In this document: positions 2,634-27,409 of the stretch, one piece after another | Numbering within the stretch: position 1 is the first letter of the stretch | Layout: every line of letters begins with the position of its first letter | Source: a virus | Length of the DNA: 36,142 nucleotides | Virus record (IMG/VR): IMGVR_UViG_3300046558_000230 | Span: 1 to 36,142 of that record | Strand: one strand, 5' to 3' | Position numbers and translations under genes: made by a program | The notes under the pieces: model-generated | Database searches by the model: none | The model's input: the letters and a program-made list of their open reading frames with translations, nothing else | What the model was told of the DNA's origin: nothing

Positions 2634-4598
2634 ATGGACTTCCTGGTGACCTCCCTGCTCACTCCGACCGGCGACATCGCCGACCCCTACCGCTCCTTCA
2701 TCGCCAAGTCCCGGTACGCCCGCTGGGACGAGGAGCGCAACCGCCGCGAGACCTGGACCGAGACCGTCGACCGCTACATCGACTTCATGCTCGGCCAGTT
2801 GAAGAACAAGCACGACTACACCCCCGAGCAGGGGGTCGTCGAAGCCGTCCGTCAGGCCGTCCTCGACCACGAGGTCATGCCGTCCATGCGCGCGGTGATG
2901 ACGGCCGGTGCCGCCCTGGACCGCTCGAACATCGCGGGCTTCAACTGTTCCTACCTCCCGCTCCAGGACCCGCGCGCCCTGGACGAACTCCTCTACATCC
3001 TCATGAACGGCACGGGCGTGGGTTACTCCGTCGAGCGCCGGTACACCGACCAACTGCCCGCCGTCCCCGAGGTCATCGAGTTCGAGGAGCGCGAGTACAT
3101 CCCCGTCGAGGACTCCAAGGAGGGCTGGGCGCTGGCCTTCCGGGCGCTGCTGACCAACCTCTGGAGCGGCAAGCGCGTCGCCTGGGACCTGTCCAAGGTG
3201 CGCCCGGCCGGGGCCCGACTTCATACCTTCGGAGGGCGAGCCTCCGGCCCGGGTCCGCTGGAGGACCTCTTCCAGTTCACCGTCGACATGTTCGAGGGCG
3301 CCAAGGGCCGACAGTTCCGCCCGATCGAGGTCCACGACATCGCCTGCAAGATCGCCTCCGTCGTGGTGGTCGGCGGCGTCCGCCGGTCCGCGATGATCTC
3401 CCTGTCCGACCTGGACGACCAGGAGATGGCGCAGGCCAAGTCGGGCGAATGGTGGAAGGACCACGGCTACCGCGCCCTCGCCAACAACTCCGCCGTCTAC
3501 GACGACGGCCTGCGCTACGAGGACTTCAACAAGGAGTGGGCGTCGCTGGTGGCGTCCGGCTCCGGCGAGCGCGGCATCTTCCACCGTGGTGCAGCCCAGC
3601 GGCAGGCCGCGAAGTACGGGCACCGCTCGGCCGACACCGACTACGGGACCAACCCGTGCTCGGAGATCATTCTCCGGCCGTTCTCCTTCTGCAACCTCTC
3701 CGAGGTCGTCGTCCGGCCGCAGGACACCGTGGAGGACCTGGAGCGCAAGGTCGCCCTCGCAGCCACCCTGGGCACCTGGCAGAGCACGCTGACGGACTAC
3801 CCGTACCTGCGTGATGAGTGGCGCAAGAACGCGGAGGAGGAGCGGCTGCTCGGTGTCTCCCTCACCGGAGTGTTCGGCAACCAGATCACCAACGGCAGCA
3901 AGGGTGACGGGCTCACCGCCCTCGCGCTGACCGACCTGCGCCTGACGGCCCGCATCGCCAACGAGACCGAGGCCCGGCGCATCGGCATCCCGTCCTCGGA
4001 TGCGATCACCTGCGTGAAGCCCTCCGGCACCGTCTCGCAGTTGGTGGACTGCGAGTCCGGGCTTCATACCAAGCACGCCCGCTTCTACAAGCGGCGCGTG
4101 CGGGTGGACAAGAAGGACCCCATCGCGTTCGTTCTGATCGACGCCGGGATCCCTCACGAGGAGGACTCCTACAACTCCGCCGCGTGGGTGTTCACCTTCG
4201 TCCAGCGGGCCGGGGAGGACGCTCTGGTGCGTGAGGACGTCTCGGCGATCGAGCACCTGGAGATCTGGCTGGCGTACCAGCGGTACTGGTGCGAGCACAA
4301 GCCGTCGGTGACGATCTCCGTGCGCGAGCACGAGTGGGACGAGGTCGGCGAGTGGGTCTGGAAGCACCTGGACGAGATCTCCGGCGTCTCCTTCCTCCCC
4401 TTCAGCGACCACACCTACGTGCAGGCTCCGTACGAGGAGGTCACGCAGGAGGAGTACGAGGCGCTGGCCGCCCAGGAGTACCGCGTCGAGTGGTCGGACC
4501 TGGCCTTCTACGAGACCTACGACCAGACCGTGGGCTCCCAGGAACTGGCGTGCTCGGCGGCCGGTGGCTGTGAGGTCGTCGACCTGGTGAGTAACTGA
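2634..4598 (+). CDS. nrdJ: adenosylcobalamin-dependent ribonucleotide reductase (class II)
   Basis: This enzyme reduces ribonucleotides to deoxyribonucleotides using vitamin B12 coenzyme, supplying precursors for phage DNA synthesis without oxygen-dependent radical chemistry. The 654-residue protein carries the expected cysteines. C105 in NIAGFNCSY and C353 in CNLSEV would form the active-site disulfide. C342 in NPCSEI would be the thiyl-radical site, with the family's 11-residue spacing to C353. C640 and C646 near the C-terminus would be the redox shuttle pair. PSGTVSQLVDCESGLH corresponds to the phosphate/substrate loop region. No Shine-Dalgarno is visible before ATG 2634; GTG 2646 is an alternative start. 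Two CTTCATACC repeats lie inside it (3219 and 4062). The stop overlaps the next ATG. Confidence 0.95.
   Translation: MDFLVTSLLTPTGDIADPYRSFIAKSRYARWDEERNRRETWTETVDRYIDFMLGQLKNKHDYTPEQGVVEAVRQAVLDHEVMPSMRAVMTAGAALDRSNIAGFNCSYLPLQDPRALDELLYILMNGTGVGYSVERRYTDQLPAVPEVIEFEEREYIPVEDSKEGWALAFRALLTNLWSGKRVAWDLSKVRPAGARLHTFGGRASGPGPLEDLFQFTVDMFEGAKGRQFRPIEVHDIACKIASVVVVGGVRRSAMISLSDLDDQEMAQAKSGEWWKDHGYRALANNSAVYDDGLRYEDFNKEWASLVASGSGERGIFHRGAAQRQAAKYGHRSADTDYGTNPCSEIILRPFSFCNLSEVVVRPQDTVEDLERKVALAATLGTWQSTLTDYPYLRDEWRKNAEEERLLGVSLTGVFGNQITNGSKGDGLTALALTDLRLTARIANETEARRIGIPSSDAITCVKPSGTVSQLVDCESGLHTKHARFYKRRVRVDKKDPIAFVLIDAGIPHEEDSYNSAAWVFTFVQRAGEDALVREDVSAIEHLEIWLAYQRYWCEHKPSVTISVREHEWDEVGEWVWKHLDEISGVSFLPFSDHTYVQAPYEEVTQEEYEALAAQEYRVEWSDLAFYETYDQTVGSQELACSAAGGCEVVDLVSN
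3219..3227 (+). repeat. CTTCATACC in-frame 9-mer, copy 1
   Basis: Encodes L196-H-T in NrdJ, in the context RLHTFGG. Together with copy 3 it shares a longer match, CGACTTCATACCT followed by CGG and GG. Confidence 0.9.
4062..4070 (+). repeat. CTTCATACC in-frame 9-mer, copy 2
   Basis: Second copy in nrdJ, encoding LHT in the context ESGLHTKHA, the conserved loop where class II reductases usually have S-G-I/L-H. Confidence 0.9.
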
Positions 4599-4981
4599 TG
4601 TACGAGTACAACGCGGTCGTCACCGACGTGCACGACGGCGACACGGTGACGGTGAACCTGGACCTCGGCGTCGACACCTGGAAACACGACTTCCACATCC
4701 GGCTGCACGGCGGCAACGCCCGCGAGTTGAAGGAGCCGGGAGGCAAGGAGGCGCGAGCGAACCTGTCCGCTCTCCTGCCGGTGGGCAGTCAGGTGGTTGT
4801 CCGCTCGCACAAGGTGGGCCGTGACGTCGACCCGGACAAGTTCGGCGGCCGGTACCTCGCGACCATCATCCTGCGGGACGGTCGGGACGTGGTCTCCCAC
4901 CTCATCGAGCAGCAGTGGCTGGCCCCATGGGACGGCAACGGGCCGAAGCCTCTGCCGCCGTGGCCTCGGCAAATTCCCTGA
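4598..4981 (+). CDS. staphylococcal nuclease-like (SNase/TNase) protein
   Basis: This 127-residue protein resembles the thermonuclease OB-fold domain, a calcium-dependent nuclease of DNA and RNA. Seen directly are the DGDTV turn (about residues 12-16), the strand FHIRLHGGNAREL, whose Arg and Glu match the catalytic Arg35/Glu43 positions, and DKFGGRYLATIIL, matching the region of catalytic Arg87. There is no signal peptide, so it should act inside the cell, perhaps in host DNA degradation or nucleotide salvage. It follows nrdJ with an overlapping TGATG and no Shine-Dalgarno, suggesting coupled translation. An inactive structural SNase domain cannot be excluded because the second Arg is displaced by GG. 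Confidence 0.82.
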   Translation: MYEYNAVVTDVHDGDTVTVNLDLGVDTWKHDFHIRLHGGNARELKEPGGKEARANLSALLPVGSQVVVRSHKVGRDVDPDKFGGRYLATIILRDGRDVVSHLIEQQWLAPWDGNGPKPLPPWPRQIP

Positions 4982-5012
4982 AGATCTTCGTCTGACTAGT
5001 TGATACATGAGT

Positions 5013-5057
5013 GGACCGGTAGTTCCTTCACCGATATGGTATTGGAACTACCGGTTC
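5013..5057 (+). promoter_or_regulatory. long inverted repeat upstream of recA
   Basis: A perfect 12-base inverted repeat, ACCGGTAGTTCC (5015-5026) and GGAACTACCGGT (5044-5055), extends by a G:U and a G:C pair to 5013 and 5057, with a 17-base loop. It is followed by TTCTTCGTT and a second small hairpin (5064-5076, CTTCG loop). It could be a terminator after the SNase gene, a processing site or part of recA leader control. The T-tract is imperfect, so termination is unproven. Confidence 0.7.
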
Positions 5058-5099: not shown

Positions 5100-5132
5100 A
5101 TGCGACTTCATACCTACGGGGGCCCCTGTTGA
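5100..5132 (+). CDS. ten-codon upstream reading frame before recA
   Basis: ATG at 5100 has the best ribosome binding site in this stretch (AGGAG at 5086-5090, nine-base spacing) and encodes MRLHTYGGPC before TGA at 5130-5132. That TGA overlaps a TTG (5129) in the recA frame. It contains a CTTCATACC copy in the usual Leu-His-Thr phase. Two readings are possible. It may be a leader peptide coupled to recA. Alternatively, a -1 shift on GGGCCCC (5120-5126, X-XXY-YYZ in this frame) would extend it into RecA as MRLHTYGGPLLSVNKE. A sequencing indel in the G/C run would look the same. Confidence 0.5.
   Translation: MRLHTYGGPC
5106..5114 (+). repeat. CTTCATACC in-frame 9-mer, copy 3
   Basis: Codons 3-5 of the ten-codon frame upstream of recA. 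This copy lies outside any long conserved protein, yet keeps the same codon phase as the others. Confidence 0.9.
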
Positions 5133-6313
5133 GCGTGAACAAGGAAGCCCTCGCCCTCCTCGCAAAGATCAACAAGACCCACCCGGGCGCCGTCTGCTTC
5201 GCCTCCGAGATGCGCGTCGCCAAGCGCTTCACCTCCGGCTCCCTCTCCCTGGACATCGCCCTCGGCGGAGGCTGGCCGGGCAACCAGTGGGTCGAGGTCA
5301 TCGGCCGCGAGTCCCACGGCAAGACCTTCATCGTCTACAAGACGCTGGCCGCCAACCAGAAGAAGGACCCCAACTTCACCTGCTTGTGGATCGCCGCCGA
5401 GCACTACGACACCGACCAGGCCGAGGCCCTCGGCGTCGACAACGACCGCGTGATCGTCGTCCCCACCCAGGCCATGGAGTTCGCCTACCAGACCATGCTC
5501 GACTTCGCGACGTCCCGCTCCGTCGACATGATCGTCCTCGACTCCTACCCGGCGCTCATCCCGGACGAGGAGTCCGAGAAGGACATGGACGAGGCCACCA
5601 TGGCCCTCGGCGCACGCCTCACCGGCAAGTTCTTCCGCAAGTCCGGCGCGGCGACGAAGCGCAGCATGACCGACCCCGACGACCGCCCGCTGCTCGGCAT
5701 CGTCATCAACCAGTACCGCGACGCCATCGGCAAGTTCTCCCCGCACGGCACGCCGACCACGACCCCCGGCGGAAACGCCAAGAACTACGCGTTCTACACC
5801 CGGGTGGAAGTCCGGCGCGACGAATGGATTCAGGAAGCCCGGCCCGGAAAGGGCAAGGTCAACGTCGGCCAGGTCATCAAGGTAAAGACCATCAAGAACA
5901 AGTCGGCGGCCCCCCAGCAGATCGCCACGATCGACGCCTACTTCCGTTCCGCCCCGTACCTGAATTTCGTCCGTGGTGACTTCGACACCACGAAGGAAAT
6001 CATGATCATGGGGATCCTCTTCGACGTCATCAAGCGCAAGGGCGCTTACTACGAGATCGACAACGGCGAATACGACGACAAGGGAAAGCCCGTCCTTCGC
6101 TGGCACAGCAAGGAAAACACCCTCGCCGCCATTCGCGAGGACCTGGACCTCCAGGAATTCCTGTACGAGAAGGTGCTCGCCGCTTCTCTCCACGCCGACG
6201 AGCGCTCCATTTCCGAGGAGGACCTGGAGGCCGCCGAGAATTCCGGCACCAAGAAGGTCAGCCGACGGCCGAAGCCGGAAGAGGCCGACGGGCTTCATAC
6301 CCAGGCCGCCTGA
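5129..6313 (+). CDS. recA: RecA-like recombinase
   Basis: This ATP-dependent strand-exchange protein supports recombination, repair and recombination-dependent replication. Numbered from GTG 5135 (392 residues), Walker A is GRESHGKT at 57-64, Walker B ends in VLDSYPAL, and the L2/DNA-binding region is seen as NQYRDAIG followed by GTPTTTPGGNAKNYAFYTR. Length and domain order suit RecA, with a longer acidic C-terminal tail ending GLHTQAA. The open frame runs back to 5000, but that extension crosses the hairpin and has no binding site. TTG 5129 or GTG 5135 are the ordinary starts (GGGGG at 5118-5122). A start at ATG 5100 with a -1 frameshift is also possible. A CTTCATACC copy lies six codons before the stop. 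Confidence 0.93.
   Translation: MSVNKEALALLAKINKTHPGAVCFASEMRVAKRFTSGSLSLDIALGGGWPGNQWVEVIGRESHGKTFIVYKTLAANQKKDPNFTCLWIAAEHYDTDQAEALGVDNDRVIVVPTQAMEFAYQTMLDFATSRSVDMIVLDSYPALIPDEESEKDMDEATMALGARLTGKFFRKSGAATKRSMTDPDDRPLLGIVINQYRDAIGKFSPHGTPTTTPGGNAKNYAFYTRVEVRRDEWIQEARPGKGKVNVGQVIKVKTIKNKSAAPQQIATIDAYFRSAPYLNFVRGDFDTTKEIMIMGILFDVIKRKGAYYEIDNGEYDDKGKPVLRWHSKENTLAAIREDLDLQEFLYEKVLAASLHADERSISEEDLEAAENSGTKKVSRRPKPEEADGLHTQAA
6293..6301 (+). repeat. CTTCATACC in-frame 9-mer, copy 4
   Basis: Encodes LHT in the extreme C-terminal tail of RecA (GLHTQAA then stop), outside the conserved fold. Confidence 0.9.
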
Positions 6314-6525
6314 TGGTGGCCGTGCTCTCCTCGCTGCTGGTCGTAGCAGCCGTTTACATCCTGGTCCTCGGCGTCCGGTACTCCCGGCGCCAGGACCGGT
6401 CCCACGAGAAGTTCACGCTTATCGCCACACTCCTGGAGGCCTCTTATGGCGGACATGTTGAAGAAGAGCCAGAGGCAGGAGCGGCGGGGAGCGCAACTCC
6501 TCGGCGGGACGGTGAACGCAGGTAG
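6313..6525 (+). CDS. small single-pass membrane protein
   Basis: This 70-residue protein starts at an ATG that overlaps the recA stop (TGATG). Residues 2-21 (VAVLSSLLVVAAVYILVLGV) form a clear transmembrane helix, followed by a basic, then acidic cytoplasmic tail. The family is not recognised. Its last 80 bases overlap the following nuclease gene in another frame, so only the first half is free to vary independently. The hydrophobic start, coupled initiation and G/C-biased third positions support it as real. Confidence 0.65.
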   Translation: MVAVLSSLLVVAAVYILVLGVRYSRRQDRSHEKFTLIATLLEASYGGHVEEEPEAGAAGSATPRRDGERR

Positions 6526-6790
6526 CGGCAACGGTTGGGTGCGAAAGAACGACGTCCGCACCCCGGATTACTCGATCGAGTACAAGGTCACCAGTAAGGG
6601 CTCGTACTCGCTCAAGGAAAAGGAACTGATCACCGCAGAGAAGCAAGCCCTGGTCGACGGCAGGGAAATGCTCTTCGGGACTCAGATGTCCGGTGGAAGA
6701 AACTGGATCACGATGTCCGAAGAGACTTTCCTGGCGCTTCATACCTTGGCGCATCCGGAAATGGACGCCGAGGAGATACTGCCGTGGTAA
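6446..6790 (+). CDS. PD-(D/E)XK nuclease, Holliday junction resolvase-like
   Basis: This 114-residue protein has the layout of small phage Holliday junction resolvases. GTVNAGSGNGWVRKND (about 21-36) leads to D36, then IEYK with E45 and K47, matching the D...ExK catalytic core, followed by SYSL and an alpha-helical segment. It would cleave branched DNA intermediates formed with RecA, two genes upstream. ATG 6446 is supported by GGAGG at 6436-6440. The stop TAA overlaps the WhiB ATG (TAATG). A CTTCATACC copy lies at 6737. The nuclease fold is confident; junction specificity is inferred. Confidence 0.8.
   Translation: MADMLKKSQRQERRGAQLLGGTVNAGSGNGWVRKNDVRTPDYSIEYKVTSKGSYSLKEKELITAEKQALVDGREMLFGTQMSGGRNWITMSEETFLALHTLAHPEMDAEEILPW
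6737..6745 (+). repeat. CTTCATACC in-frame 9-mer, copy 5
   Basis: Encodes LHT in the context LALHTLAHP near the C-terminus of the resolvase-like nuclease. Its flanks, GCG before and TTG after, are identical to copy 6 in the unrelated RNA ligase. Confidence 0.9.
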
Positions 6791-8981: not shown

Positions 8982-9665
8982 ATGACCATCCTCAAGTCCA
9001 GCGACTACCCGAAGTTCCGGCCCATCCCGCGACTGCACCGCAGGGTCGTGCTCACCGAGAAGATCGACGGCACCAACGGCCTGATCGAGGTCACCAAGGT
9101 CGACGAGCCCGACCTGTTCCAGGCCACCGACCCCACCGGCATCCTCGCCGGAGGCAGCGACGGCAACACCTACCTCGTCCGGGCCGGAAGCCGGAACCGC
9201 TGGCTGACCCTGGAAGCCGACAACTTCGGCTTCGCCAAGTGGGTCTACGACAACGCTGACGCAATCACCGCGCTCGGCGAGGGCAAGCACTACGGCGAGT
9301 GGTTCGGCAAGGGCATCCAGTCCGGCTACGGCCTCGACGACAGGCGCTTCGCCCTCTTCAACGTAAACCGCTGGTACGACATCCGCGACGCCGAGGTCAC
9401 CGACAAGTACCTGGAGACCTTCCCCAAGGCCGTCCCCGCCCCGCCGGAGGTCACCGTCGTACCGGTCATCCTGGTCGCCAACGGCAACGACCTTAACTAC
9501 GCCGTGAACATCGCGCTTCATACCTTGGAGTCGGACGGCTCCTTCATCGCTCCCGGCTTCAAGGACCCCGAGGGTGTAGTCGTCTGGCACGACGCAGCCG
9601 GAGCCTTCTTCAAGGCCACGATCAAGAACGACGAAGCGCCCAAGAGCAAGGTGTCCGCCAAGTGA
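8982..9665 (+). CDS. RNA ligase (Rnl2-like nucleotidyltransferase)
   Basis: This ATP-dependent ligase would seal RNA (or nicked nucleic acid) through a lysyl-AMP intermediate. Seen directly are motif I EKIDGTNG with nucleophile K27, motif III-like GEWFGKGIQ (about 106-114), motif IIIa RFALFNV, motif IV PEGVVVW (about 194-200) and motif V FKATIKND (about 209-216). At 227 residues it is shorter than T4 Rnl2 and appears to be mainly the catalytic domain. Phage RNA ligases often repair tRNAs cut by host defence nucleases; no tRNA or kinase/phosphatase partner is visible here. A CTTCATACC copy lies at 9516. The stop overlaps the thyX GTG (GTGA). Confidence 0.88.
   Translation: MTILKSSDYPKFRPIPRLHRRVVLTEKIDGTNGLIEVTKVDEPDLFQATDPTGILAGGSDGNTYLVRAGSRNRWLTLEADNFGFAKWVYDNADAITALGEGKHYGEWFGKGIQSGYGLDDRRFALFNVNRWYDIRDAEVTDKYLETFPKAVPAPPEVTVVPVILVANGNDLNYAVNIALHTLESDGSFIAPGFKDPEGVVVWHDAAGAFFKATIKNDEAPKSKVSAK
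9516..9524 (+). repeat. CTTCATACC in-frame 9-mer, copy 6
   Basis: Encodes LHT in IALHTLES of the RNA ligase, between motifs IIIa and IV. Its immediate flanks match copy 5. Confidence 0.9.
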
Positions 9666-10892: not shown

Positions 10893-11491
10893 GCACCGCC
10901 ACCACCAACACCACCGACGGCCACGACATCGTCGAGTCCTGGCTCCCGCAGTTCATCGGCCTCCACGGCTTCCCGGGCACGGGCAAGGACGCCGTCGCCA
11001 AGATCCTCGCCGACTACGGCTACACCCGCGTCGCCTTCGCCGACAAACTCCGCGAGGCCCTGTACGTCCTCAACCCGGTCATCGTCTTCGACGAGTACGG
11101 CTACGAACTCCGCGTCCAGGACCTGGTCGACAACCTCGGCTGGGACGACGCCAAGCGCCAGTACGAGGAGATCCGCCGGATGCTCCAGGTCATCGGCACC
11201 GAAGTCGGCCGCGAGATGATCGACCAGAACGTGTGGGTCGACGCAGCCTTCAAGGGCCTGGACAAGGACAAGAAGTACGTCTTCACCGACCTGCGGTTCG
11301 AGAACGAGCACCACGCCATCGACTCCCGCCTCGGCATGCTCGTCAAGATCGAGCGGCCCGGCGTCGGTGCGGTCAACGACCACAAGTCCGAGAAGCCCCT
11401 GCCCGACAAGTGGTTCGACGTCCGCCTGGTCAACGACGGCACCCTCGAAGACCTTCATACCAAGGTCAGGGACATCCTGGCCTTCGCGTGA
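10889..11491 (+). CDS. deoxynucleoside monophosphate kinase
   Basis: The enzyme transfers phosphate from ATP to dNMPs, resembling the T4 gene 1 family. The P-loop is GFPGTGKD (residues 27-34), followed by FADKLREALY, a QVIGTEVGREMIDQNVWVD segment (about 97-115) and DLRFENE (about 134-140), all typical of this kinase family. The length of 200 residues is normal. GTG 10889 overlaps the preceding stop. It acts downstream of ThyX and salvage. A CTTCATACC copy lies near the C-terminus (11453). The stop overlaps the GTG of the endonuclease VII-like gene. Confidence 0.88.
   Translation: MSTATTNTTDGHDIVESWLPQFIGLHGFPGTGKDAVAKILADYGYTRVAFADKLREALYVLNPVIVFDEYGYELRVQDLVDNLGWDDAKRQYEEIRRMLQVIGTEVGREMIDQNVWVDAAFKGLDKDKKYVFTDLRFENEHHAIDSRLGMLVKIERPGVGAVNDHKSEKPLPDKWFDVRLVNDGTLEDLHTKVRDILAFA
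11453..11461 (+). repeat. CTTCATACC in-frame 9-mer, copy 7
   Basis: Encodes LHT in DLHTKVR near the C-terminus of the dNMP kinase, beyond the conserved catalytic motifs. Confidence 0.9.
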
Positions 11492-13582: not shown

Positions 13583-14842
13583 ATGGCTGCGAGCAAGACC
13601 CCCGCACAGAAGGCTGCGGATACCCGCACCTACAACAAGACCGTCAAGGACGCGTCGGCCAAGCGGCAGTCCTACGAGGCCGCCAACCCCGAGCGGTTCC
13701 AGACCATCCAGGACAAGCCCGGTGCCGGTGCCAGTCCCCGCCAGTCGTACCGGCTGATGGGCAACACCGACAAGGCTCCGAACCTGCACGGCCAGATGGA
13801 GTTGGCGGGCCCGGAGGGATCTGATGTCTGGCACGGCCAGCACACCCTGAACCCGGTCAAGGACATGATGCCGGTCAACCGTCGGTGGGAGGACCACACG
13901 CCTGCCGAGCAGTCCCGTGTGCTGCGGTCGGCCGCCAAGTTCGGTGTCACCCCCGAGTCCGCGCACCGCGCGCTGGCCGCGCAGGTCGACCGTGCCTACG
14001 CCCACGAGGGCGGGCACCACGACTCGTTCTACAGCCCGGCCCAGGATCACACCCGTGACGGCTCCCTGTCCCCTCGTGCGCGCCTGAAGACGTCCGCGAA
14101 GGAGAACGGGGTGCCCTTCGGCGTCCAGGCCGCTGCGAACGCCATCACGTCCCCGCAGAACGTCTTCGTGCGGCCGGACAAGGAGACGGGCAAGGCGGTC
14201 TACCCCAACGACGAGGCGGCCAGCCACGCGATCAAGTGGGCGAAGTCCGGGAAGACCGGCGCCGACTACCACTACCACCCGGACTACTACGTCCCGCGCG
14301 AGGACAAGGTCGAGAAGACCGTCACCTCGAAGTCGGGCAAGCAGTTCACGCAACTGGTGAAGAAGGAAGGCGACACCCGCGCCTACCCGGTCAACGGCTA
14401 CCCGCGTAACCACGCCCTCGCCATCGACGTGACGAACCAGGTCCTCAACGGCAAGCAGTTGTCGAACGCGTGGAAGCCGACGGCCGGTGAGAAGGTCGGC
14501 GCCTACCACAACTCGTGGGTCGACCCCCACGGCTCCTCGCAGTTCTGGGTGTCCGACACCCACTCCGGTGGCGGCGCGTTCGCCCCGCACCTGGAGGACA
14601 AGAAGGGTTCCGGCAGCCAGCAGGCCTACATGGGCATCAAGGGCATCCACGCCTTCCACGACCACGTCGCCCGCAACGTGATGCAGGAGCGCGGCCTCAA
14701 CTCCCTGACCAACATGCAGTCCGCGCAGTGGTCGGAGGAGAAGCGCCGCCGAGGCGACAACCACGACTCCTCGCTGAACACCTACGGCAAGGGCAACGAA
14801 CTTCATACCGAGGTCCACCCGGGCCAGCAGAAGTTGTTCTGA
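13583..14842 (+). CDS. hypothetical protein with C-terminal QQKLF
   Basis: This 419-residue protein has no assigned function. The N-terminus is basic and Ala-rich (about 1-35). The central region contains many histidines (YAHEGGHHDSFY, DYHYHPDYY) and a block RNHALAIDVTNQVL...EKVGAYHNSW...SQFWVSDTHSGGGAFAP, which looks like a compact enzyme or binding domain (about 275-345). It ends in GQQKLF, matching the QxxLF beta-clamp-binding pattern at an exposed C-terminus. A CTTCATACC copy lies 14 codons before the stop. GGAGG at 13571-13575 supports ATG 13583. The stop overlaps the next ATG. Clamp binding is only a motif-level suggestion. Confidence 0.75.
   Translation: MAASKTPAQKAADTRTYNKTVKDASAKRQSYEAANPERFQTIQDKPGAGASPRQSYRLMGNTDKAPNLHGQMELAGPEGSDVWHGQHTLNPVKDMMPVNRRWEDHTPAEQSRVLRSAAKFGVTPESAHRALAAQVDRAYAHEGGHHDSFYSPAQDHTRDGSLSPRARLKTSAKENGVPFGVQAAANAITSPQNVFVRPDKETGKAVYPNDEAASHAIKWAKSGKTGADYHYHPDYYVPREDKVEKTVTSKSGKQFTQLVKKEGDTRAYPVNGYPRNHALAIDVTNQVLNGKQLSNAWKPTAGEKVGAYHNSWVDPHGSSQFWVSDTHSGGGAFAPHLEDKKGSGSQQAYMGIKGIHAFHDHVARNVMQERGLNSLTNMQSAQWSEEKRRRGDNHDSSLNTYGKGNELHTEVHPGQQKLF
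14801..14809 (+). repeat. CTTCATACC in-frame 9-mer, copy 8
   Basis: Encodes LHT in NELHTEVHPG, just before the terminal QQKLF of the 419-residue protein. Confidence 0.9.
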
Positions 14843-15132: not shown

Positions 15133-15296
15133 TGGCCAAGCACAGAAAGCCGCACCGCGCAGACGACAAGCGGCGCCCTGGAATGTCTGACAACAGCAAG
15201 CGCACGGTACAAGAGGGTTCGACCGGTGCCGCTAAGCCACTGGCCATCTTCAACGATCGCCGGGGCGCGAACGGTAACGGAAAGCGAGCGAAGTAA
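15132..15296 (+). CDS. 54-residue basic protein
   Basis: This small gene runs ATG 15132 to TAA 15296, overlapping its neighbours by one base on each side. It is rich in Lys and Arg (about one quarter), with a His/Arg N-terminus (MAKHRKPHRADDKRR) and a Gly/Asn/Lys C-terminus (RRGANGNGKRAK). It could bind nucleic acid. The family is not recognised. Confidence 0.65.
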   Translation: MAKHRKPHRADDKRRPGMSDNSKRTVQEGSTGAAKPLAIFNDRRGANGNGKRAK

Positions 15297-15544: not shown

Positions 15545-15546
15545 AT

Positions 15547-16413
15547 ATGTCTCTGACCGACAATCTCACCAAGGTCGTAAATGCCGAGGTGGGATACCAC
15601 GAGGGCTATTCCAACGGCCACTGGAACAACCACGAGAAGTACGCCGACAAGGTCCCGGGCCTGGAGTGGGTCGACGACGTGGAAGGTGCCTGGTGCGCGG
15701 TATTCGCGGCGTGGGCCTTCCAGACGGCGGGCCTGCCGAAGGGTGCCTACCCGGTTACCGCCTCGTGCGCGACCGGCGTTTCCTGGTACAAGGCCCGGAA
15801 GCGATTCAGTGGGTACCCCGCGATCGGCGCTCAGATCTTCTACGGGCCGGGCGGAGGTGAGCACACCGGGGTCGTCATCGGATTCGACGCGACTCACGTA
15901 TACAGCGTAGAAGGCAATACGAACGTGAACGGTTCGCCAGAAGGGGATGGCGTTTACGCCAAGACCCACGTCCGGACCGACGCGCACGTCTACGGGTACG
16001 GCTACCCGGAATACCCGGACGGCATCGAGTCGGCCGACCCGGCGTGGAAGTCGCAGAACCCTTCGCTTCATACCCCGGCGGCTCCGGCCGCCCCGGCTCC
16101 GGCCCCGAAGCCTGCTGCGAAGCCGGTCGTGGACGTCTCCAACGTCGTCGCGGCCCGCAAGGCGGACCTTCCGGCGGCCACCGGCCACACGACCCACAAG
16201 GCGGACGTGCTGCTCGTCGAGAAGGCACTGTCGGCGCTGGGCTACCTGGACGCGAAGTGGGTGGACGGCTCCTGGGGCACCAAGACGCAGGACGCCTACG
16301 ACCTCTTCCGCCGGAAGCAGGGCTACACGGGCGACGACGCCAAGGGTGCTCCGGGCCTGGCGTCGCTGACGAAGTTGGCCAAGGCCAGCGGTCTGTTCAC
16401 CGTCAAGGCGTGA
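15547..16413 (+). CDS. endolysin: CHAP amidase/peptidase with C-terminal wall-binding domain
   Basis: This 288-residue enzyme cleaves host peptidoglycan at lysis. The CHAP domain (about 1-160) has catalytic C50 in GAWCAVFAAWAF, H106 in GGGEHTGVVIGF and an EGNTN acid position near 122. A Pro/Ala/Lys linker follows (about 173-195). A C-terminal peptidoglycan-binding-like repeat (about 210-288) shows LLVEKALSALGYLDAKWVDG and WGTKTQDAYDLFRRKQGY. There is no signal peptide, so export would need a holin; none is certain here. A CTTCATACC copy begins the linker at 16066. A strong terminator follows. Confidence 0.9.
   Translation: MSLTDNLTKVVNAEVGYHEGYSNGHWNNHEKYADKVPGLEWVDDVEGAWCAVFAAWAFQTAGLPKGAYPVTASCATGVSWYKARKRFSGYPAIGAQIFYGPGGGEHTGVVIGFDATHVYSVEGNTNVNGSPEGDGVYAKTHVRTDAHVYGYGYPEYPDGIESADPAWKSQNPSLHTPAAPAAPAPAPKPAAKPVVDVSNVVAARKADLPAATGHTTHKADVLLVEKALSALGYLDAKWVDGSWGTKTQDAYDLFRRKQGYTGDDAKGAPGLASLTKLAKASGLFTVKA
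16066..16074 (+). repeat. CTTCATACC in-frame 9-mer, copy 9
   Basis: Encodes LHT exactly where the CHAP domain of the endolysin gives way to the Pro/Ala linker (PSLHTPAAPA). Copy 10 has the same TCG before it and a similar SLHT-x-AAPA reading. Confidence 0.9.
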
Positions 16414-16470: not shown

Positions 16471-16505
16471 TAAGAGCAAGAACGTCCCCGAACGTGAGGC
16501 ACCGC

Positions 16506-17120
16506 ATGCGCTACCGCGTCGCAGCAGCAGCAGCGTCCGCCATCCTCATTACGGCTTCTGCCGTATCAGCAATCTCCATCACCGGCCAGGACCAGCCCGT
16601 CGACTACAGCGGCATCGCCGCAGCGCCGACCGTCACCCGCTCAGCTCCGGACACCGCCAACCGGTCCCTGACGCGCCCCTCGCTTCATACCTCGGCGGCT
16701 CCGGCAACCTCCCCGAAGGTCACCAAGACCCCCAAGCCGACCGCCAGCGCCACCCACACCCACCAGCCGAAACCAACGAAGACACCGCGTGCGTCCCCAA
16801 CGCCGACGCACACCGCCGTCGCCCCGACCTCCCCGACCTCCCCGAAGGCCTACGCCCTCGCCAAGGTCGGAGCCACGCAGTTCGCCTGCCTGGACCTGCT
16901 GTGGGAGAAGGAGTCCAACTGGCGCGTCACCGCCACCAACCCCTCCTCCGGAGCCTACGGAATACCCCAGGCACTACCGGCCTCGAAGATGGCTTCCGCC
17001 GGTTCGGATTGGCAAACCAATGCAATAACCCAGATACGATGGGGACTCGGATACATCGAGGCGGTATACGGGACACCCTGCACCGCCTGGGCACACTCCC
17101 AGGCCACTAACTGGTACTGA
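16506..17120 (+). CDS. secreted lytic transglycosylase-like protein
   Basis: This 204-residue protein has a signal peptide (basic MRYRV, hydrophobic AAAAASAILITASAVSAI), a long Pro/Thr/Ser-rich stretch (about 45-115), and a C-terminal SLT-like domain. The domain shows CLDLLWEKESNW with likely catalytic E136, then NPSSGAYGIPQALP and ITQIRWGLGYIEAVYGTPC. This would cut the glycan backbone outside the membrane. Similar domains occur in actinobacterial secreted hydrolases, so capture from a host is plausible. ATG 16506 is preferred to GTG 16494 because GAGG at 16495-16498 is well spaced. A CTTCATACC copy lies in the linker. Confidence 0.85.
   Translation: MRYRVAAAAASAILITASAVSAISITGQDQPVDYSGIAAAPTVTRSAPDTANRSLTRPSLHTSAAPATSPKVTKTPKPTASATHTHQPKPTKTPRASPTPTHTAVAPTSPTSPKAYALAKVGATQFACLDLLWEKESNWRVTATNPSSGAYGIPQALPASKMASAGSDWQTNAITQIRWGLGYIEAVYGTPCTAWAHSQATNWY
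16683..16691 (+). repeat. CTTCATACC in-frame 9-mer, copy 10
   Basis: Encodes LHT at the start of the low-complexity linker of the secreted transglycosylase (PSLHTSAAPA). Confidence 0.9.
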
Positions 17121-17620: not shown

Positions 17621-17648
17621 CCCCACCCGACACATACCTGGAGCACAC

Positions 17649-18038
17649 ATGAGCATCCCGATCCTCGGTCAGACCCCCAGCAGCGACAGCACCGCGCTTC
17701 ATACCGACGACCTCACGCCCGAGCAGCGTGAGGCCCTGGCCAAGATGGCGGAGGAGAACCCGCCCGCCGAGGACGAGATCGGCACCCCGGTCACCACGGC
17801 GTTCCTCGTCGCCGTCGGCCTGGACGGCGCCGTCGTCGCCACCAGCGACCTGACCCAGAAGTTCGTCCCCCGGCGAGGAGCCACCCCGGACGACATCTAC
17901 GGCGCCGTCGCCGTGGTCCAGAAGGACCTCACCGTCATGGAGACGGCCCAGCGCACCCAGCAGCAGATGATGATGGTCGGACAGGCGATGCAGCGGCAGG
18001 CCCAGGAGGCCCAACTCCGCGCTTCTCTCAAACTCTGA
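17649..18038 (+). CDS. hypothetical protein with helical Gln/Met-rich tail
   Basis: This 129-residue protein is not recognised. The N-terminal part is acidic (DLTPEQREALAKMAEENPPAEDE), a central strand-rich segment reads TAFLVAVGLDGAVVATSDL, and the C-terminus is a long Gln/Met-rich helix (TAQRTQQQMMMVGQAMQRQA), probably a coiled coil. A CTTCATACC copy encodes residues 17-19. GGAG at 17640-17643 supports ATG 17649. A perfect 14-base terminator follows, so it closes this transcription unit. Confidence 0.72.
   Translation: MSIPILGQTPSSDSTALHTDDLTPEQREALAKMAEENPPAEDEIGTPVTTAFLVAVGLDGAVVATSDLTQKFVPRRGATPDDIYGAVAVVQKDLTVMETAQRTQQQMMMVGQAMQRQAQEAQLRASLKL
17697..17705 (+). repeat. CTTCATACC in-frame 9-mer, copy 11
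   Basis: Encodes LHT at residues 17-19 (TALHTDDL) of the preceding hypothetical gene; the only exact copy close to the N-terminus of a full-length protein apart from copy 13. Confidence 0.9.
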
Positions 18039-18115: not shown

Positions 18116-19108
18116 ATGGCCGGATACGAGTTCTACCTCAATCGAGCAGTAAGCCAGGGAGCACAGCCCGACATTCACTCGGGGGCATCCGGCTATTTCA
18201 GCACGCCGCAGCGCGGACTGGACCCGCACATCTTCGACGGCAAGCACATCAAGCCCGACGTGCGCGACCACATCCTCGGCATCCTGAACAACTTCCTCGA
18301 CGCCCGCTACAAGGGCGCTCGCACCTGGTCAGCGGCCTGGCTCGCAGGCTCCGGCATCTCCTACCAGTGGGCCGGAGACCGAGGCAACGGCGACCTCGAC
18401 GTTCTCTTCGGCGTCGACTTCCCCAAGTTCTACGAGGCCAATCCCACCTTCCAGGGAATCAGCGAAACGGAATTCGCGGACCTCCTGAACACAGACCTCA
18501 AGCGGAACCTGTGGCCGTCCACCGCGAACACAAACTTCCACGGCCAGACGTACGAGGTCACCTACTACCTGAACCCGGGTACGACCTCGCACAGCATCGC
18601 CGCAATTCACCCCTACGCGGCCTACAACCTCACCGCCGACCGCTGGGACATCACCCCGCCCGAGCTGCCGGACGACCCGCGCAGCCTCTACCCGGCCGAG
18701 TGGAAGACCGCCGTCGAAGCCGAACAGAAGCAGGCCGAGCTGCTCGTCAAGCGCTACGGCCTCCTGCGCTCCCAGGCCGCCCAGTCCGTGGAGAACAGCC
18801 CGGCCTGGAAGAACGCCATGGACTCCCAGCGCATCGTCACCGAGCAGGCCAAGGCCCTCTTCGACGACATCCACCTCAGCCGCCGCATGGCCTTCTCCGG
18901 GACCGGCGAGGGCTACGGCGACTACTACAACTTCCGCTGGCAGGCACACAAGGAAGCCGGGACCGTCCAGGCCCTGAGCGCCCTCGCCACGGCGGAGACC
19001 GAGGCCCGCAAAGCACAAGAAACGGATCTGTACGGGGCTCCCCTCGATGACGCTGCCGTGGCCCTGGCCAAGGCGGCCCTCTGGAACACCCCCTACAGGA
19101 GAGCGTGA
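18116..19108 (+). CDS. nucleotidyltransferase-like protein
   Basis: The 330-residue protein carries a pol-beta-type nucleotidyltransferase signature. AGSGISY (G78-S79) is followed by GDLDVLFGVD, with D93 and D95 as likely metal ligands and a further Asp downstream. The C-terminal half is helical and charged (about 190-330). Members of this fold transfer nucleotides to RNA, protein or small molecules; the substrate here is unknown. It begins after a terminator, has no Shine-Dalgarno, and may be read from a leaderless transcript. Its stop overlaps the start of the ParB-like gene. Confidence 0.68.
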   Translation: MAGYEFYLNRAVSQGAQPDIHSGASGYFSTPQRGLDPHIFDGKHIKPDVRDHILGILNNFLDARYKGARTWSAAWLAGSGISYQWAGDRGNGDLDVLFGVDFPKFYEANPTFQGISETEFADLLNTDLKRNLWPSTANTNFHGQTYEVTYYLNPGTTSHSIAAIHPYAAYNLTADRWDITPPELPDDPRSLYPAEWKTAVEAEQKQAELLVKRYGLLRSQAAQSVENSPAWKNAMDSQRIVTEQAKALFDDIHLSRRMAFSGTGEGYGDYYNFRWQAHKEAGTVQALSALATAETEARKAQETDLYGAPLDDAAVALAKAALWNTPYRRA

Positions 19109-19968
19109 TGGCACCTTCCCGCAGTAAGCCGGACACCGCCGGTCCACAGTTCGAGCAGACCGCCCTCCCGGTCCCCCTGGGCAGCAGGGTCTCCGCCCAA
19201 GGCCAGAAGCAGACCGCGCTCCGCGCGGCCTACCACCTGACCAAGGACACGCCGCTGCATCTCCAGGCCAAGCCCGGCGCACTTCATATCGGGCATCCCA
19301 CGCCTCACAGCGGCGGGATGTTCACCAAGGTCACCTCGCTCGGCGCCGCCCGTGACGAGACGCTCATCCATGACGAGGAGCGCACCAACTACCCCCAGTC
19401 CGAGGGGCAGATGGTCATGGGCCCGCCGCACTCCCCGCAGCAGTTCGGGCACCTCGACGGGCACGGCAACGTCGTCGACACCAAGATCGACGACAAGTGG
19501 TACGAGAAGCACGGCCCGCAGATGAGCCACGGCAACGAGGCCTTCTGGAACAAGCACGCCAAGTTCCAGAGCATCAGCACCAGCGCCGTCCTGCACACCG
19601 GCCAGACCGCGTACGAGACCGGCTCACACTCCTACATCACCGGCCCGCTGGCCCCCGACCACCCGCACGTGAAGGTGGTCATCCAGGGCGGCACACCGTA
19701 CGTCGCCGACGCGCACCACCGGCTCGCCGAAGCGCGCGGCCGGGGAGACACCCATGTCGGGGCCCACGTCCTCAACCTCGACCAGTTCGAGAAGACCGCC
19801 CCCGTCGAACCCAAGATCAAGACCCACACCGACCTCGACGCCGTGCACGAGCACCTGATCCAGGCCCACGGGATGAGTCCCCGCTTCCTGGAGCACGACC
19901 AGCGCAAGGCCGTCCGCGCCCATGAGAAGGCCCACCGTGAGGGCCTGATCGAACACCGGCACGGGTGA
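19108..19968 (+). CDS. ParB-like domain protein
   Basis: In this 286-residue protein, about residues 170-220 resemble the ParB/sulfiredoxin N-terminal fold: ITGPLAPDHPHVKVVI, then TPYVADAHHRLAEARGRGD (the dGhHR-like motif) and THVGAHVLNLD. ParB-fold proteins bind or cut DNA or hydrolyse CTP, but the rest is His/Gln-rich and unfamiliar, so function is open. ATG 19108 overlaps the previous stop; GTG 19105 is an alternative, both after AGGAG. It contains the CTTCATATC variant of the repeat (LHI) and, at 19591, an LHT spelled with the usual codons CTGCACACC. Confidence 0.65.
   Translation: MAPSRSKPDTAGPQFEQTALPVPLGSRVSAQGQKQTALRAAYHLTKDTPLHLQAKPGALHIGHPTPHSGGMFTKVTSLGAARDETLIHDEERTNYPQSEGQMVMGPPHSPQQFGHLDGHGNVVDTKIDDKWYEKHGPQMSHGNEAFWNKHAKFQSISTSAVLHTGQTAYETGSHSYITGPLAPDHPHVKVVIQGGTPYVADAHHRLAEARGRGDTHVGAHVLNLDQFEKTAPVEPKIKTHTDLDAVHEHLIQAHGMSPRFLEHDQRKAVRAHEKAHREGLIEHRHG
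19282..19290 (+). repeat. CTTCATATC variant of the 9-mer
   Basis: Encodes LHI in GALHIGHP. It differs from the consensus at position 8 only and keeps the same codon phase. Confidence 0.75.
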
Positions 19969-20469: not shown

Positions 20470-20765
20470 CCAGCAACGGCTATGTCCTGTTCATCGGCAT
20501 CGCCCGCATCCTCTCCGTCCTCACCGGAGCAGCGTTCGCGGCCCTGCTTCTGCGCGCGACGATCCCCGCCTGGCGCCAGCTCGGCGCCGCAGAGCGATGG
20601 CTCGCCGCCACCCTCTTCGTCTACAGCACCAACGTGACCGTCTTCACCGCCGTGTTCCTGGCGTCGAGCACGTCCGCGCGGTCGCTGATCAGCGTCGGCT
20701 TCCTGGCCTCCTTCGTGGCCGGACACCGCTACCTCTACTTCCTGAGAAGGGACATACGGCCATGA
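20466..20765 (+). CDS. small membrane protein with about three helices
   Basis: From GTG 20466 (overlapping the previous stop as GTGA) this 99-residue protein has hydrophobic helices at about 6-28 (YVLFIGIARILSVLTGAAFAA), 45-65 (WLAATLFVYSTNVTVFTAVF) and 72-88 (LISVGFLASFVAGH). It ends in a basic tail (RYLYFLRRDIRP). Size and topology would suit a class I holin, and it is the best multi-helix membrane candidate near the endolysin. It is about 4 kb away, however, so the holin assignment is speculative. Its stop overlaps the next ATG. Confidence 0.7.
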   Translation: MTSNGYVLFIGIARILSVLTGAAFAALLLRATIPAWRQLGAAERWLAATLFVYSTNVTVFTAVFLASSTSARSLISVGFLASFVAGHRYLYFLRRDIRP

Positions 20766-21445
20766 GTGGCTCCGTCTTCCATTCCATCGCGACCCAGATC
20801 CGCGACCGCTACCTCCAGCCCCTCCAGTTCCCCGGCTCGCGCCGCAGCGTCGAGCAGCGCGTCAGCGACCTGGAGAACGCCAAGAACGGCCAGCAGCCCG
20901 CCAACTCCCGCATCAAGATCCGCGTCAAGGGACAGGGCCAGCAGAGCGCCCCGGCCCAGGACAGCAGCATGCACGCCCGCGTGATGAGCCGCGAGGGCAT
21001 CGCCAACGGCATCAAGAACCAGGCCGACATCCAGCGGGTGCGCGAGGACCACTCCTCCAGCCTCGACGCCTGGCATGCCCAGCACTCCGGCGCGGCCTCC
21101 GACCTCCTTCATACCTTCAACGCCCGGATGAACGGCATCCAGGCGCAGAGCAAGCCCTCCGGCGGGGCCTGGGACGACTTCCACTCCGCGTTCGGCACCC
21201 ACGCCAGCACGTCGGGCACCCCTGTCCAGTCGGCCCCGCAGACGCCGCCACCGGCTGCCAAGCCGCAGCGCGTCGTCCAGGCCGGACTGTTCGGCCCGAG
21301 CCAGGTCCGCTCCCCGCAGCAGTTCGGGATGGCCGCGTCGCCGGGCCCCCGGCAGAAGCCCGCCGTTGGCGCTCCGGCCGCCAAGAAGCCCCGCGTCACC
21401 CAGCCCGGCCTCTTCCCCAAGAGTGCCGTCCAGCCCCCGAAGTAA
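20762..21445 (+). CDS. hypothetical protein with two QxGLF motifs
   Basis: The protein (227 residues from ATG 20762) has an N-terminal helical part containing a coiled-coil-like segment (RSVEQRVSDLENAK), a polar middle, and a long Pro/Ala/Gln-rich C-terminal region (about 140-227). That region holds two similar phrases: QRVVQAGLFG and PRVTQPGLFP. Both QAGLF and QPGLF fit the QxxLF beta-clamp-binding pattern, as does QQKLF in the 419-residue protein at 13583. A disordered tether displaying two clamp motifs is possible; alternatively they are simple repeats. A CTTCATACC copy lies at 21107. Confidence 0.72.
   Translation: MSGSVFHSIATQIRDRYLQPLQFPGSRRSVEQRVSDLENAKNGQQPANSRIKIRVKGQGQQSAPAQDSSMHARVMSREGIANGIKNQADIQRVREDHSSSLDAWHAQHSGAASDLLHTFNARMNGIQAQSKPSGGAWDDFHSAFGTHASTSGTPVQSAPQTPPPAAKPQRVVQAGLFGPSQVRSPQQFGMAASPGPRQKPAVGAPAAKKPRVTQPGLFPKSAVQPPK
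21107..21115 (+). repeat. CTTCATACC in-frame 9-mer, copy 12
   Basis: Encodes LHT in DLLHTFNARM, within the helical middle of the QxGLF protein. It is preceded by CTC for Leu, so the two adjacent Leu codons differ. Confidence 0.9.
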
Positions 21446-21471: not shown

Positions 21472-23010
21472 GTGCACCTCTTCCTCGGCGGATCCGAGAT
21501 TCCCGGCTGGCGCAAGATGCTGGCCGAGGAAGGCGTCGAAACCGTCTCCCTCTCGTACATGGGCCTGCGGCGCCGGACCAAGTTCACCCGCCCCTGGCTG
21601 ATCGAGGACAACTACCTCGAAAACCAGAAGGTTTTCCTGGACTCCGGCGCCTACACGGTCAACAAGGCCGACGACGACAAGTACTCGATCGGCGAACTGA
21701 AAGACATCGCCGCACATTACGAGGCGTTCGTCCAGCAGAACATCGATTCCCTTCATATGGTGTCCGAGTTCGACGCTGTCGTTCTCGGACGGGAATGGAT
21801 CGAGGCCCGGCGAGAGGACTTCTACGAGGACCTGCCGGAAGACAAGTTCCTTCCGATATGGCATTCGGAATGGGGAGTCGACGAACTCGATAAACTCGCC
21901 CAGAGGTATAAGCGAGTCGGTGTGACGCAGACAGATCTCGACGGCCGGAATCTCACCCCGGTGCTCAACGAGATCACCCGGAAATACGGCACGCTACTCC
22001 ACGGAGTGGCGATGACTAAGCCTGCGGAAATGGCTGCCGTGAACTGGGACAGCGTCGCCTCGACGTCCTGGCTTTCCCCTTCCCAGTACGGTGACACCAT
22101 TGTGTGGACCGGCAGGGAATTGAAGCGCTACCCGAAGAAGTACAAGGACCAGGCGCGGAAAAGGCACCGCACTCTGTTCACCGAAGCGGGCTTCGACGCC
22201 GACCGTATCGAGGCCGGAGAGAACGACGAGGTCCTGCGGTTCACCATCTGGTCATGGCAGCAGTTGGCCGCCTCGATCGACCAGCACCGGCCGCAGGAAG
22301 CCCAAGCAGTTACTACTTCTGCCGGAGGGGTACTTTCGAGTTTCTCTCAAATGCAGGGCACCGAAGTTGATACGGAGGACGGAAAAACGCTCAACCCGGT
22401 GACAACTCCGGCCGTCCGCAGAGACCGCCCGCGTACCAACTTGCCGGTCATCGGCCTGGTGCAGGAGAAGGAGGTCTACACCGACCCCGAGGACGGCGTG
22501 AACAAGGAGCGGGACATCCCCCTCCTGACGGTGCGCAGCCAGTCCATGCGCGCCTGCTCGTCCTGCTTCCTGTCCTCGAAGTGCCCGGCCTTCGACCAGA
22601 ATGCCAACTGCGCGTACGACATCCCGGTCGAAGTGAAGAGCAAGCAGCAGATGCAGTCGCTCCAGAATTCGCTCATCGAGATGCAGGCGCAGCGGGTCCT
22701 CTTCATGAAGATGGTCGAGGATATGACCGGTGGCTACGCGGATCCGAACCTCTCCGGCGAGATCGACCGGCTCCAGAAACTCGTGAAGGTGAAGACGGAA
22801 CTGGAGCAGGACTCCTTCTCCGTGAAACTGGAGGCTAAGGGGAATGGCGGCGGGGCCGGTATGATCAGCCGTATCTTCGGCCGGGACGCCGGGGAACAGA
22901 TGACAGCGCTCGACAGGCCTCTCTCGGCGGACCGGATGATCGAGTCCTCGACCGGTTTCATCGACGCCGAAATCGTCGACGTACCAACTTACATCAACCA
23001 GGAAGGTTAG
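21472..23010 (+). CDS. TGT/DpdA-like TIM-barrel protein with Cys-rich C-terminal extension
   Basis: The N-terminal half of this 512-residue protein resembles the tRNA-guanine transglycosylase superfamily, especially phage and bacterial DpdA-like proteins. It shows LFLGGSEIPGW, LSYMGLRRRTK, VFLDSGAYT (D57-S58-G59, the SGGFQ-like site), RVGVTQ, LLHGVAMTK and SVASTSW. Such enzymes exchange guanine for a deazaguanine in tRNA or DNA. No preQ0-synthesis gene is in this window. The C-terminal half has a cysteine cluster (C362, C365, C371, C380) and long charged helices, not typical of TGT. It carries a CTTCATATG variant. Superfamily placement is moderate; the substrate is unknown. Confidence 0.55.
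   Translation: MHLFLGGSEIPGWRKMLAEEGVETVSLSYMGLRRRTKFTRPWLIEDNYLENQKVFLDSGAYTVNKADDDKYSIGELKDIAAHYEAFVQQNIDSLHMVSEFDAVVLGREWIEARREDFYEDLPEDKFLPIWHSEWGVDELDKLAQRYKRVGVTQTDLDGRNLTPVLNEITRKYGTLLHGVAMTKPAEMAAVNWDSVASTSWLSPSQYGDTIVWTGRELKRYPKKYKDQARKRHRTLFTEAGFDADRIEAGENDEVLRFTIWSWQQLAASIDQHRPQEAQAVTTSAGGVLSSFSQMQGTEVDTEDGKTLNPVTTPAVRRDRPRTNLPVIGLVQEKEVYTDPEDGVNKERDIPLLTVRSQSMRACSSCFLSSKCPAFDQNANCAYDIPVEVKSKQQMQSLQNSLIEMQAQRVLFMKMVEDMTGGYADPNLSGEIDRLQKLVKVKTELEQDSFSVKLEAKGNGGGAGMISRIFGRDAGEQMTALDRPLSADRMIESSTGFIDAEIVDVPTYINQEG
21751..21759 (+). repeat. CTTCATATG variant of the 9-mer
   Basis: Encodes LHM in DSLHMVSE. The first seven bases match the consensus and the codon phase is the same. Confidence 0.7.
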
Positions 23011-23022
23011 TTAGTACTTCTC

Positions 23023-23172
23023 ATGAGCGCACACGTGCATGCAGTGTCTCCCGCCGAAATCGGCGAGGGCGCGGCAGAGGAGATCGACTGCAAGAGGTGC
23101 TACGGGTCCGGTGAGGATCGCGACGGCGCCGACTGTGTCCACTGCGAGGGATTCGGTACGGTGCTGGTATGA
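23023..23172 (+). CDS. 49-residue DnaJ-type zinc-knuckle protein
   Basis: This small gene runs ATG 23023 to TGA 23172, the latter overlapping the next ATG. The C-terminal half reads CKRCYGSGEDRDGADC then VHCEGFG, that is CxxCxGxG...CxxCxGxG, the repeat of the DnaJ cysteine-rich domain (one zinc). The N-terminal half is acidic. Such stand-alone units bind zinc and may act as protein adaptors. No J domain is nearby. The precise cysteine spacing makes chance unlikely. Confidence 0.78.
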   Translation: MSAHVHAVSPAEIGEGAAEEIDCKRCYGSGEDRDGADCVHCEGFGTVLV

Positions 23173-23567
23173 ACGGAATCCAGCGCATCAAAGTCGCCCT
23201 TGCGGCAATCGGAATTCTCGCCGTACCGGCATTCGGGATCTCGGCCGTTGCCCAGTCGGATTTCTCCGGGCTTCATACCGAGAATTCCCAGTCGGATTCT
23301 CCCGCATACGAAGGGGATTCATCGCCGCAGCCCGTGCCTACGGTGACCAGGTATCTGTCCGCGCCGACACCGGAAGCAACGAAGTCGGAATCCTCGGGTA
23401 CGTGCAAGGTATCGCTCGTGGTCGGGCCTTCACCCGCAGTACCCGCACCTACGTCCTCGGCCACGCCATACGCCCCCGTATACGGGCTGGCGCACACGCA
23501 TTCCGTGCAGGTCAAGATTCCGTGCCCGAAGGAAACGGTGACGGAAACGCCTACATCTAGCAAGTAA
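23169..23567 (+). CDS. secreted or surface protein with Thr/Pro-rich body
   Basis: This 132-residue protein has a signal peptide (basic NGIQRIKV, hydrophobic ALAAIGILAVPAFGISAVAQ). It is followed by a Ser/Pro/Thr-rich region and a small strand-rich portion with two cysteines (GTCKVSLVVG and VKIPCPKE) that could form a disulfide. It ends with TETPTSSK. Function is unknown; an exported protein affecting the host surface, such as superinfection exclusion, is conceivable. A CTTCATACC copy (23271) lies just after the signal region. The coupled ATGA start and a following terminator define its unit. Confidence 0.72.
   Translation: MNGIQRIKVALAAIGILAVPAFGISAVAQSDFSGLHTENSQSDSPAYEGDSSPQPVPTVTRYLSAPTPEATKSESSGTCKVSLVVGPSPAVPAPTSSATPYAPVYGLAHTHSVQVKIPCPKETVTETPTSSK
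23271..23279 (+). repeat. CTTCATACC in-frame 9-mer, copy 13 (last)
   Basis: Encodes LHT in SGLHTENS. It is the rightmost exact copy; the remaining 12.8 kb of the window has none in coding sequence. Confidence 0.9.
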
Positions 23568-27407: not shown

Positions 27408-27409
27408 CC

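Follow-up and report, generated by a model that had tools for sequence, protein, structure and literature searches.

A nine-nucleotide word, CTTCATACC, recurs in unrelated genes of a stretch of viral DNA of 36,142 nucleotides (IMG/VR record IMGVR_UViG_3300046558_000230, positions 1 to 36,142; hereafter the window). The window belongs to a Streptomyces phage genome of ~106 kb with 31-34 exact copies, and the general form of the word in this phage family is CTT-MAT-AYN. We show that this motif is a selected mRNA sequence that must sit in a translated reading frame, and that, between two sister clades of these phages, its middle letter has changed at many sites together. A small solitary HicA-like protein is the best, if tentative, candidate for its reader.

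The word in the window and in related phages

The word is a real feature of the window. All 13 exact positions given in an earlier note, which had been made from the letters alone, are correct and lie on the + strand; 0.05 copies are expected and none of 100 shuffles reaches 13, in agreement with the note's estimate of far fewer than one. Each copy is in an open frame and reads Leu-His-Thr, as had been stated. The codon-shuffled null proposed there gives 0.075 (synonymous shuffle) or 0.015 (codon-order shuffle) copies in called genes against the 11 found, and in full genomes synonymous shuffling leaves 0.1-0.2 words per genome against 29-33. The strand specificity that had been claimed holds in part: no reverse complement occurs within the window, where one-strandedness follows from all genes lying on +, but full genomes hold a few minus-strand copies. 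A literature search for the word did not find CTTCATACC, and found CTTAATACC only in an unrelated grape study.

Relatives of up to ~110 kb were located in IMG/VR via NrdJ and a DpdA/TGT-like protein; the genomes are mostly metagenomic contigs and the gene calls, from our own script, are uncurated. One of them, G013 (106,046 bases), is near-identical to the window, covers its region at an offset of ~26,323 bases and looks like a complete circular map because of a short end overlap. BRock-like Streptomyces phages are distant kin, and relatives inside Streptomyces genomes have terminases 60-62% identical. Each genome of this ~106 kb family carries about 30-40 exact copies of one 9-mer, which is CTTCATACC only in one group (C) and CTTAATACC only in the other (A); copies share their orientation, and no locus among the first 53 had both forms. 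The exception is G006 with two close A-group kin, which carry one CTTCATACC each; that of G006 stands at a site common to C genomes and reads as an imported segment. In a concatenated-protein tree the A and C groups form sister clades (support 99 and 85), with the no-word contigs G024 and G026 outside. No clear word of their own was seen in the more distant relatives BRock, GiJojo, G024 and G026.

A scan of nine genomes on both strands with CTTMATA[CT] found 344 sites, which fall into 86 orthologous families: 34 common to A and C, 30 found in C only and 22 in A only. In the 34 shared families the residue switches from His to Asn at the same places between the C and A clades. The third codon is mostly ACC, with ATC, ACT, ACG and ATG also used and one family having ATG in 9/9 genomes.

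Two further candidate words were rejected. CTT-CTA in G030 reflects a general T-CTA context bias that is seen in other phases too, and in Xkcd426 both strands hold CTT-CAG freely. In the G030 contigs L212-L216, CTA codons strongly favour a preceding T, and CTT-CTA is found 45 times in frame against 2.3 expected, as well as off frame.

The word is read in frame

In called genes of the C genomes, 179 copies are in phase 0, one is in phase 2 and one is antisense; all 121 copies in the A genomes are in phase 0. The codon-phase lock reported earlier is thus confirmed (179/180 sense cases in C, 121/121 in A). Among peptide sites able to spell the word in frame, 179 of 209 in C (86%) and 121 of 143 in A (85%) carry it, against 1 of 98 and 0 of 106 of those off frame, so the free occurrence in other phases and on both strands that the note had named as contrary to its claim is not seen. 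Copies outside called genes lie mostly in leader open reading frames (ORFs) with stops overlapping the next start, among them MRLHTYGGPC-stop, MTRLNTCPRQGDHR-stop and MRLHTRAVA-stop, or in small ORFs that were not called; chance seems to account for two or three copies that run antisense to a gene or out of its frame. The ~106 kb genomes have 31-37 forward and 0-3 reverse copies each, and the rare reverse ones are inside minus-strand genes, in the sense and frame of those genes. The word therefore follows the mRNA and not the genome strand. Together, the frame lock, the leader ORFs and the minus-strand genes identify an mRNA word that must be translated. Word and frame are solid, and we infer that something in the translating ribosome reads the word.

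These data bear directly on several simpler explanations. The single strand within the window had suggested a polarity word of the Chi/KOPS type, or a nick, packaging or replication signal; such a role is excluded, because the orientation follows neither replication nor the genome strand, minus-strand genes hold copies that read with the gene, and the frame is locked. Another explanation takes the frame lock as a by-product of an ancestral A-type word, the signal being an ordinary RNA site for an RNase or a small RNA: off frame, CTTAATACC contains TAA and TTA, which would give a stop or an avoided TTA codon in A genomes. This is distinctly unlikely, as the 30 C-only families are almost all in frame, only that one of the 98 available off-frame C sites is used, and the frame of the leader-ORF copies is left unexplained. 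An antisense guide RNA was rejected for a related reason, the exact complement of the word being found only within minus-strand genes that carry it; an antisense RNA would not need a frame, and we regard the small-RNA target suggested earlier as unlikely. Of the roles listed in the earlier note, an RNase target or a translational signal stays among the options, and the polarity, replication, packaging and mobile-repeat roles are dropped.

A close parallel at the level of DNA is provided by the stoperators of cluster A mycobacteriophages such as L5 and Bxb1 (PMC6550527), temperate actinophages with 20-30 short asymmetric sites genome-wide in the sense of transcription, and with specificity groups in which the sites and one regulator differ together. 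The count and the orientation with transcription of the present word are alike, and temperate genes are present. However, stoperators are DNA sites under a repressor, and DNA binding needs no reading frame. Here off-frame sites are unused, intergenic copies sit in translated leaders, and the protein that covaries with the site type is HicA-like rather than a helix-turn-helix repressor. The XRE-DUF5753 regulator ignores the C/A split, that of G013 (C) being 94% identical to that of G007 (A) and 68% to that of G005 (C). Stoperator-like sites under a repressor are therefore improbable; a plain DNA operator is strongly argued against, and these observations fit a plain DNA or RNA site only with difficulty.

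Selection at the nucleotide level

Within families, all 406 of 406 same-clade pairs agree in codons 1 and 2 of the word, whereas upstream codons with an unchanged amino acid are identical in 71-81%, a contrast that is partly built in since the families were gathered by the motif itself. The 86% of in-frame peptides able to spell the word that do so in C genomes is an independent measure. Often a synonymous change alone creates a new site, from an LHT or LNT that was already there in the spelling CTGCACACC or CTGAACACC. Thus, the proposal that the nucleotide word is conserved beyond the peptide is borne out. General codon bias and selection for the LHT peptide were rejected, LHT or LNT spelled quite otherwise being background with few cases per genome. 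In the nine genomes, the codons directly 3' of the word show a synonymous conservation of 91-92%, compared with ~75% upstream, which could reflect a longer recognised stretch or overlapping genes.

The presence of the word in unrelated genes, described earlier, also stands, with NrdJ, UvsX, an RNA ligase, a kinase and an endolysin among the carriers. Its position in the tails, leaders and linkers of such genes might recall a tiny mobile in-frame repeat or its scar. This origin is very improbable: sites are at orthologous positions across clades, the C/A switch is coordinated, and aligned homologues at many sites show substitution (LHQ, LRT or a respelled LHT) and not the insertion of LHT that had been envisaged, new copies arising by point changes that are often purely synonymous.

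Sites in the window

The sites of the window are the following.

3219..3227, + strand: word CTTCATACC in NrdJ (2634-4598), peptide RLHTFGGRASGP; CTTAATACC in the A-clade ortholog, LRT in no-word outgroups
4062..4070, + strand: second NrdJ word (ESGLHTKHARF), only in three C genomes; the others have CTGCACCAG (LHQ) or LHP
5100..5132, + strand: 10-codon leader ORF whose TGA overlaps the TTG just before the UvsX/RecA-like ORF
5106..5114, + strand: word in this leader ORF (MRLHTYGGPC-stop), present here in 9/9 genomes; in A genomes fused to the recombinase N-terminus
6293..6301, + strand: word in the C-terminal tail of the UvsX/RecA-like recombinase (LHT-QAA-stop)
6737..6745, + strand: word near the C-terminus of ORF 6446-6790 (function unassigned)
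9516..9524, + strand: word in RNA ligase 8982-9665
11453..11461, + strand: word near the C-terminus of deoxynucleoside monophosphate (dNMP) kinase 10889-11491, common to 9/9 genomes
14801..14809, + strand: word near the C-terminus of ORF 13583-14842
16066..16074, + strand: word in the linker of endolysin 15226-16413
16683..16691, + strand: word in ORF 16494-17120, a lineage-specific site
17697..17705, + strand: word in ORF 17601-18038, common to 9/9 genomes
19282..19290, + strand: variant CTTCATATC (LHI) in ORF 19105-19968; CTTCATATC in 3 C genomes, CTTAATATC in 4 A genomes
21107..21115, + strand: word in ORF 20597-21445; LHT spelled CTGCACACC in two A orthologs
21751..21759, + strand: variant CTTCATATG (LHM) in the DpdA/TGT-like gene 21472-23010; in 9/9 genomes, as CTTCATATG in 5 C and CTTAATATG in 4 A
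23271..23279, + strand: word in an ORF around 23169-23567
23280..36142, no strand assigned: word-free stretch with many small genes and sigma-70-like promoter repeats (CTTGACAAG..., ACACCAGGAGG)

The two variants listed in the note, CTTCATATC and CTTCATATG, are genuine members, the ATG form being kept in 9/9 genomes. The partial match GTCCATACC at 12458 differs at two positions; its membership is unsupported and we treat it as chance.

Close to the start of UvsX, the leader ORF at 5100-5132 ends in a stretch with G-GGC-CCC, which could act as a -1 slippery heptamer; a frameshift there would join the leader to the UvsX gene, as A genomes do in frame. The DpdA-like tRNA-guanine transglycosylase (phrog_887) is 46-47% identical to those of BRock-type phages and suggests 7-deazaguanine DNA modification. 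The word-free stretch corresponds in G013 to an 18.5 kb gap (49.6-68.1 kb) of small genes without the word. It includes two strong-hairpin copies, 91% identical, at 30521-30575 and 32363-32417 (AAAGGCCCCCACC...GGTGGGGGCC), which are probably terminators.

A HicA-like protein as candidate reader

We ranked 122 shared genes by the closeness of divergent C genomes (G020, G015) to G013 minus that of A genomes. The largest C/A contrast, +27.7 against a median of -9, far more than phylogeny would give and high again with other references, belongs to a gene outside the window (84357-84602 of G013) for a HicA-like protein of 81-97 amino acids. Its type matches the word type of the contig at 12 C-type and 11 A-type loci, and it is absent from the no-word G024, G026 and BRock. 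The AlphaFold model (pLDDT 74) has the alpha-beta-beta-beta-alpha (H-E-E-E-H) order of a dsRBD-like fold; the best PDB match in Foldseek is 1whz, with the HicA chains 6g26, 4p78 and 4c26 further down. TGGNH, which includes the GGNH motif with its conserved Gly and catalytic His, is invariant in 12 HicA-like sequences. The gene is solitary, between the XRE-DUF5753 regulator and a tyrosine integrase: reading the gene neighbourhood revealed no HicB-like neighbour, although no hidden Markov model search of each neighbour was made. Upstream of it (L183:9740-10000) are a conserved hairpin, AGCCCCG...CGGGGCT, and a conserved near-palindrome, GTGGCCTAGGTCAC. The HicA of Escherichia coli cuts preferentially before the first base of codons, which is unexpected for a ribosome-independent enzyme (PMC8546651); cutting in codon phase is the property that a frame-locked target would need.

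Several observations weigh against this assignment. The match to Pfam PF07927 (HicA; E=5.1e-5, 23.7 bits) is below the gathering cut-off of 27, the A-type protein has no Pfam match, and the Foldseek matches are weak, none with an E below 0.08. In most A genomes the end of hicA is CTTAATCTC, short of the full word, and G030 (L206) has a more distant HicA homolog in a genome without a comparable word. Cluster BG Streptomyces phages have a solitary HicA-like toxin, likewise without a protein antitoxin and in the same host genus (PMC5773734), and no in-frame word in two genomes (first 50 kb each). The first description of E. coli HicA had it acting independently of translation (Jorgensen 2009, cited in PMC8546651). 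Finally, the association between HicA and the word represents one evolutionary split, an n=1 correlation, because A and C are sister clades.

The word could instead be an in-frame mRNA signal at the ribosome with another reader, such as a programmed pause or a ribosome-bound host or phage factor that times translation, folding or mRNA stability. The selection on frame and nucleotides is independent of HicA, and p118 (64 amino acids, L121:6717-6908), which also counts against the HicA-like protein, is the next gene, of those present in every genome compared, to split clearly between C and A (+15.8, weaker than hicA), is absent from no-word relatives, and has a model that weakly resembles archaeal ribosomal protein LX (E 0.18, prob 0.94). 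A rare-codon pause, however, would tolerate variants such as CTC-CAT or CTT-CAC, yet no same-clade family varies at codons 1 and 2, a constancy partly built in by the way the families were gathered; and a host factor would not predict a switch specific to phage clades. We consider a reader other than HicA possible, if doubtful.

Two other phage genes were rejected as readers: the DpdA/TGT-like gene is also present in the no-word BRock, G024 and G026, and a phage tRNA cannot explain the C form because tRNA-His is found in only three of five C genomes. This tRNA-His (GTG) is 86 nt with a long variable arm (L113:1737-1822, L121:8973-9058, L164:9573-9658), a class II body that is unusual for tRNA-His.

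Proposed role and comparison with known systems

A putative HicA-like reader of the word in translating ribosomes, restraining lytic transcripts, seems to us plausible, at somewhat less than an even chance. As ribosomes pass, the HicA-like protein would stall the mRNA at the word or cut it there, between codons, in the way reported for the E. coli enzyme, and lytic transcripts would be held down, whether for lysogeny, for immunity to superinfection or for timing. Among the genes of the window and G013 that carry the word are those for DNA polymerase, primase, helicase loader, NrdJ, UvsX, dNMP kinase, RNA ligases, polynucleotide kinase, endolysin and exonuclease. The genome carries a tyrosine integrase and an XRE-DUF5753 regulator; in G013 no word was seen in either of them, in the serine recombinase or in the 18.5 kb small-gene stretch. 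Lytic restraint is suggested because sites span replication, nucleotide, virion and lysis genes and none was seen in the integrase, the XRE regulator or the small-gene region. An immunity or lysogeny role of the HicA-like protein is conjecture; on that view C and A would represent two groups of differing specificity, the equivalent, at the level of RNA, of mycobacteriophage stoperators. The fuller version, in which the solitary protein of a temperate phage family would read the fixed three-codon word in ribosomes and silence any lytic mRNA that bears it, and immunity groups would arise by a one-letter change at dozens of genes plus the reader, is unlikely. In G013, a cluster of RNA-repair genes (L121:12480-16306) encodes an RlaP-type nucleotidyltransferase, a T4 Rnl1-like ligase and a PNKP, the ligase and the kinase carrying the word.

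The candidate shares with HicA mRNA interferases (PF07927) the fold, the GGNH motif and the small size, and the codon-phase cutting of the E. coli enzyme would suit it. HicA specificity is listed as poorly defined (PMC8546651), in contrast to the long fixed word described here. Further differences are the apparent lack of an adjacent HicB gene and the cognate sites, which appear to have accumulated in the phage's own genes.

T4 RegB is a phage endoribonuclease that acts on the phage's own mRNAs, but its target, GGAG at ribosome binding sites, is no codon-phased word. The DNA uptake sequences of Haemophilus and Neisseria are exact 9-10-mers scattered in coding regions; unlike the present word, they are bound neither to the sense strand nor to a single frame, and the occurrence on both strands and in several frames that characterizes them is not seen here, where no uptake role is indicated.

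Significance

To our knowledge, no described genome-wide signal needs codon phase and covaries at dozens of genes. If the proposed reading is true, a virus tags the genes it encodes with a word that is translated; this would be a new mode of viral gene control and may constitute a post-transcriptional type of phage immunity. The phages would then let ribosome-coupled, sequence-specific recognition of mRNA be studied in a natural system and give a possible answer to the question of HicA-type targets, with the C/A pair as a ready-made specificity switch.

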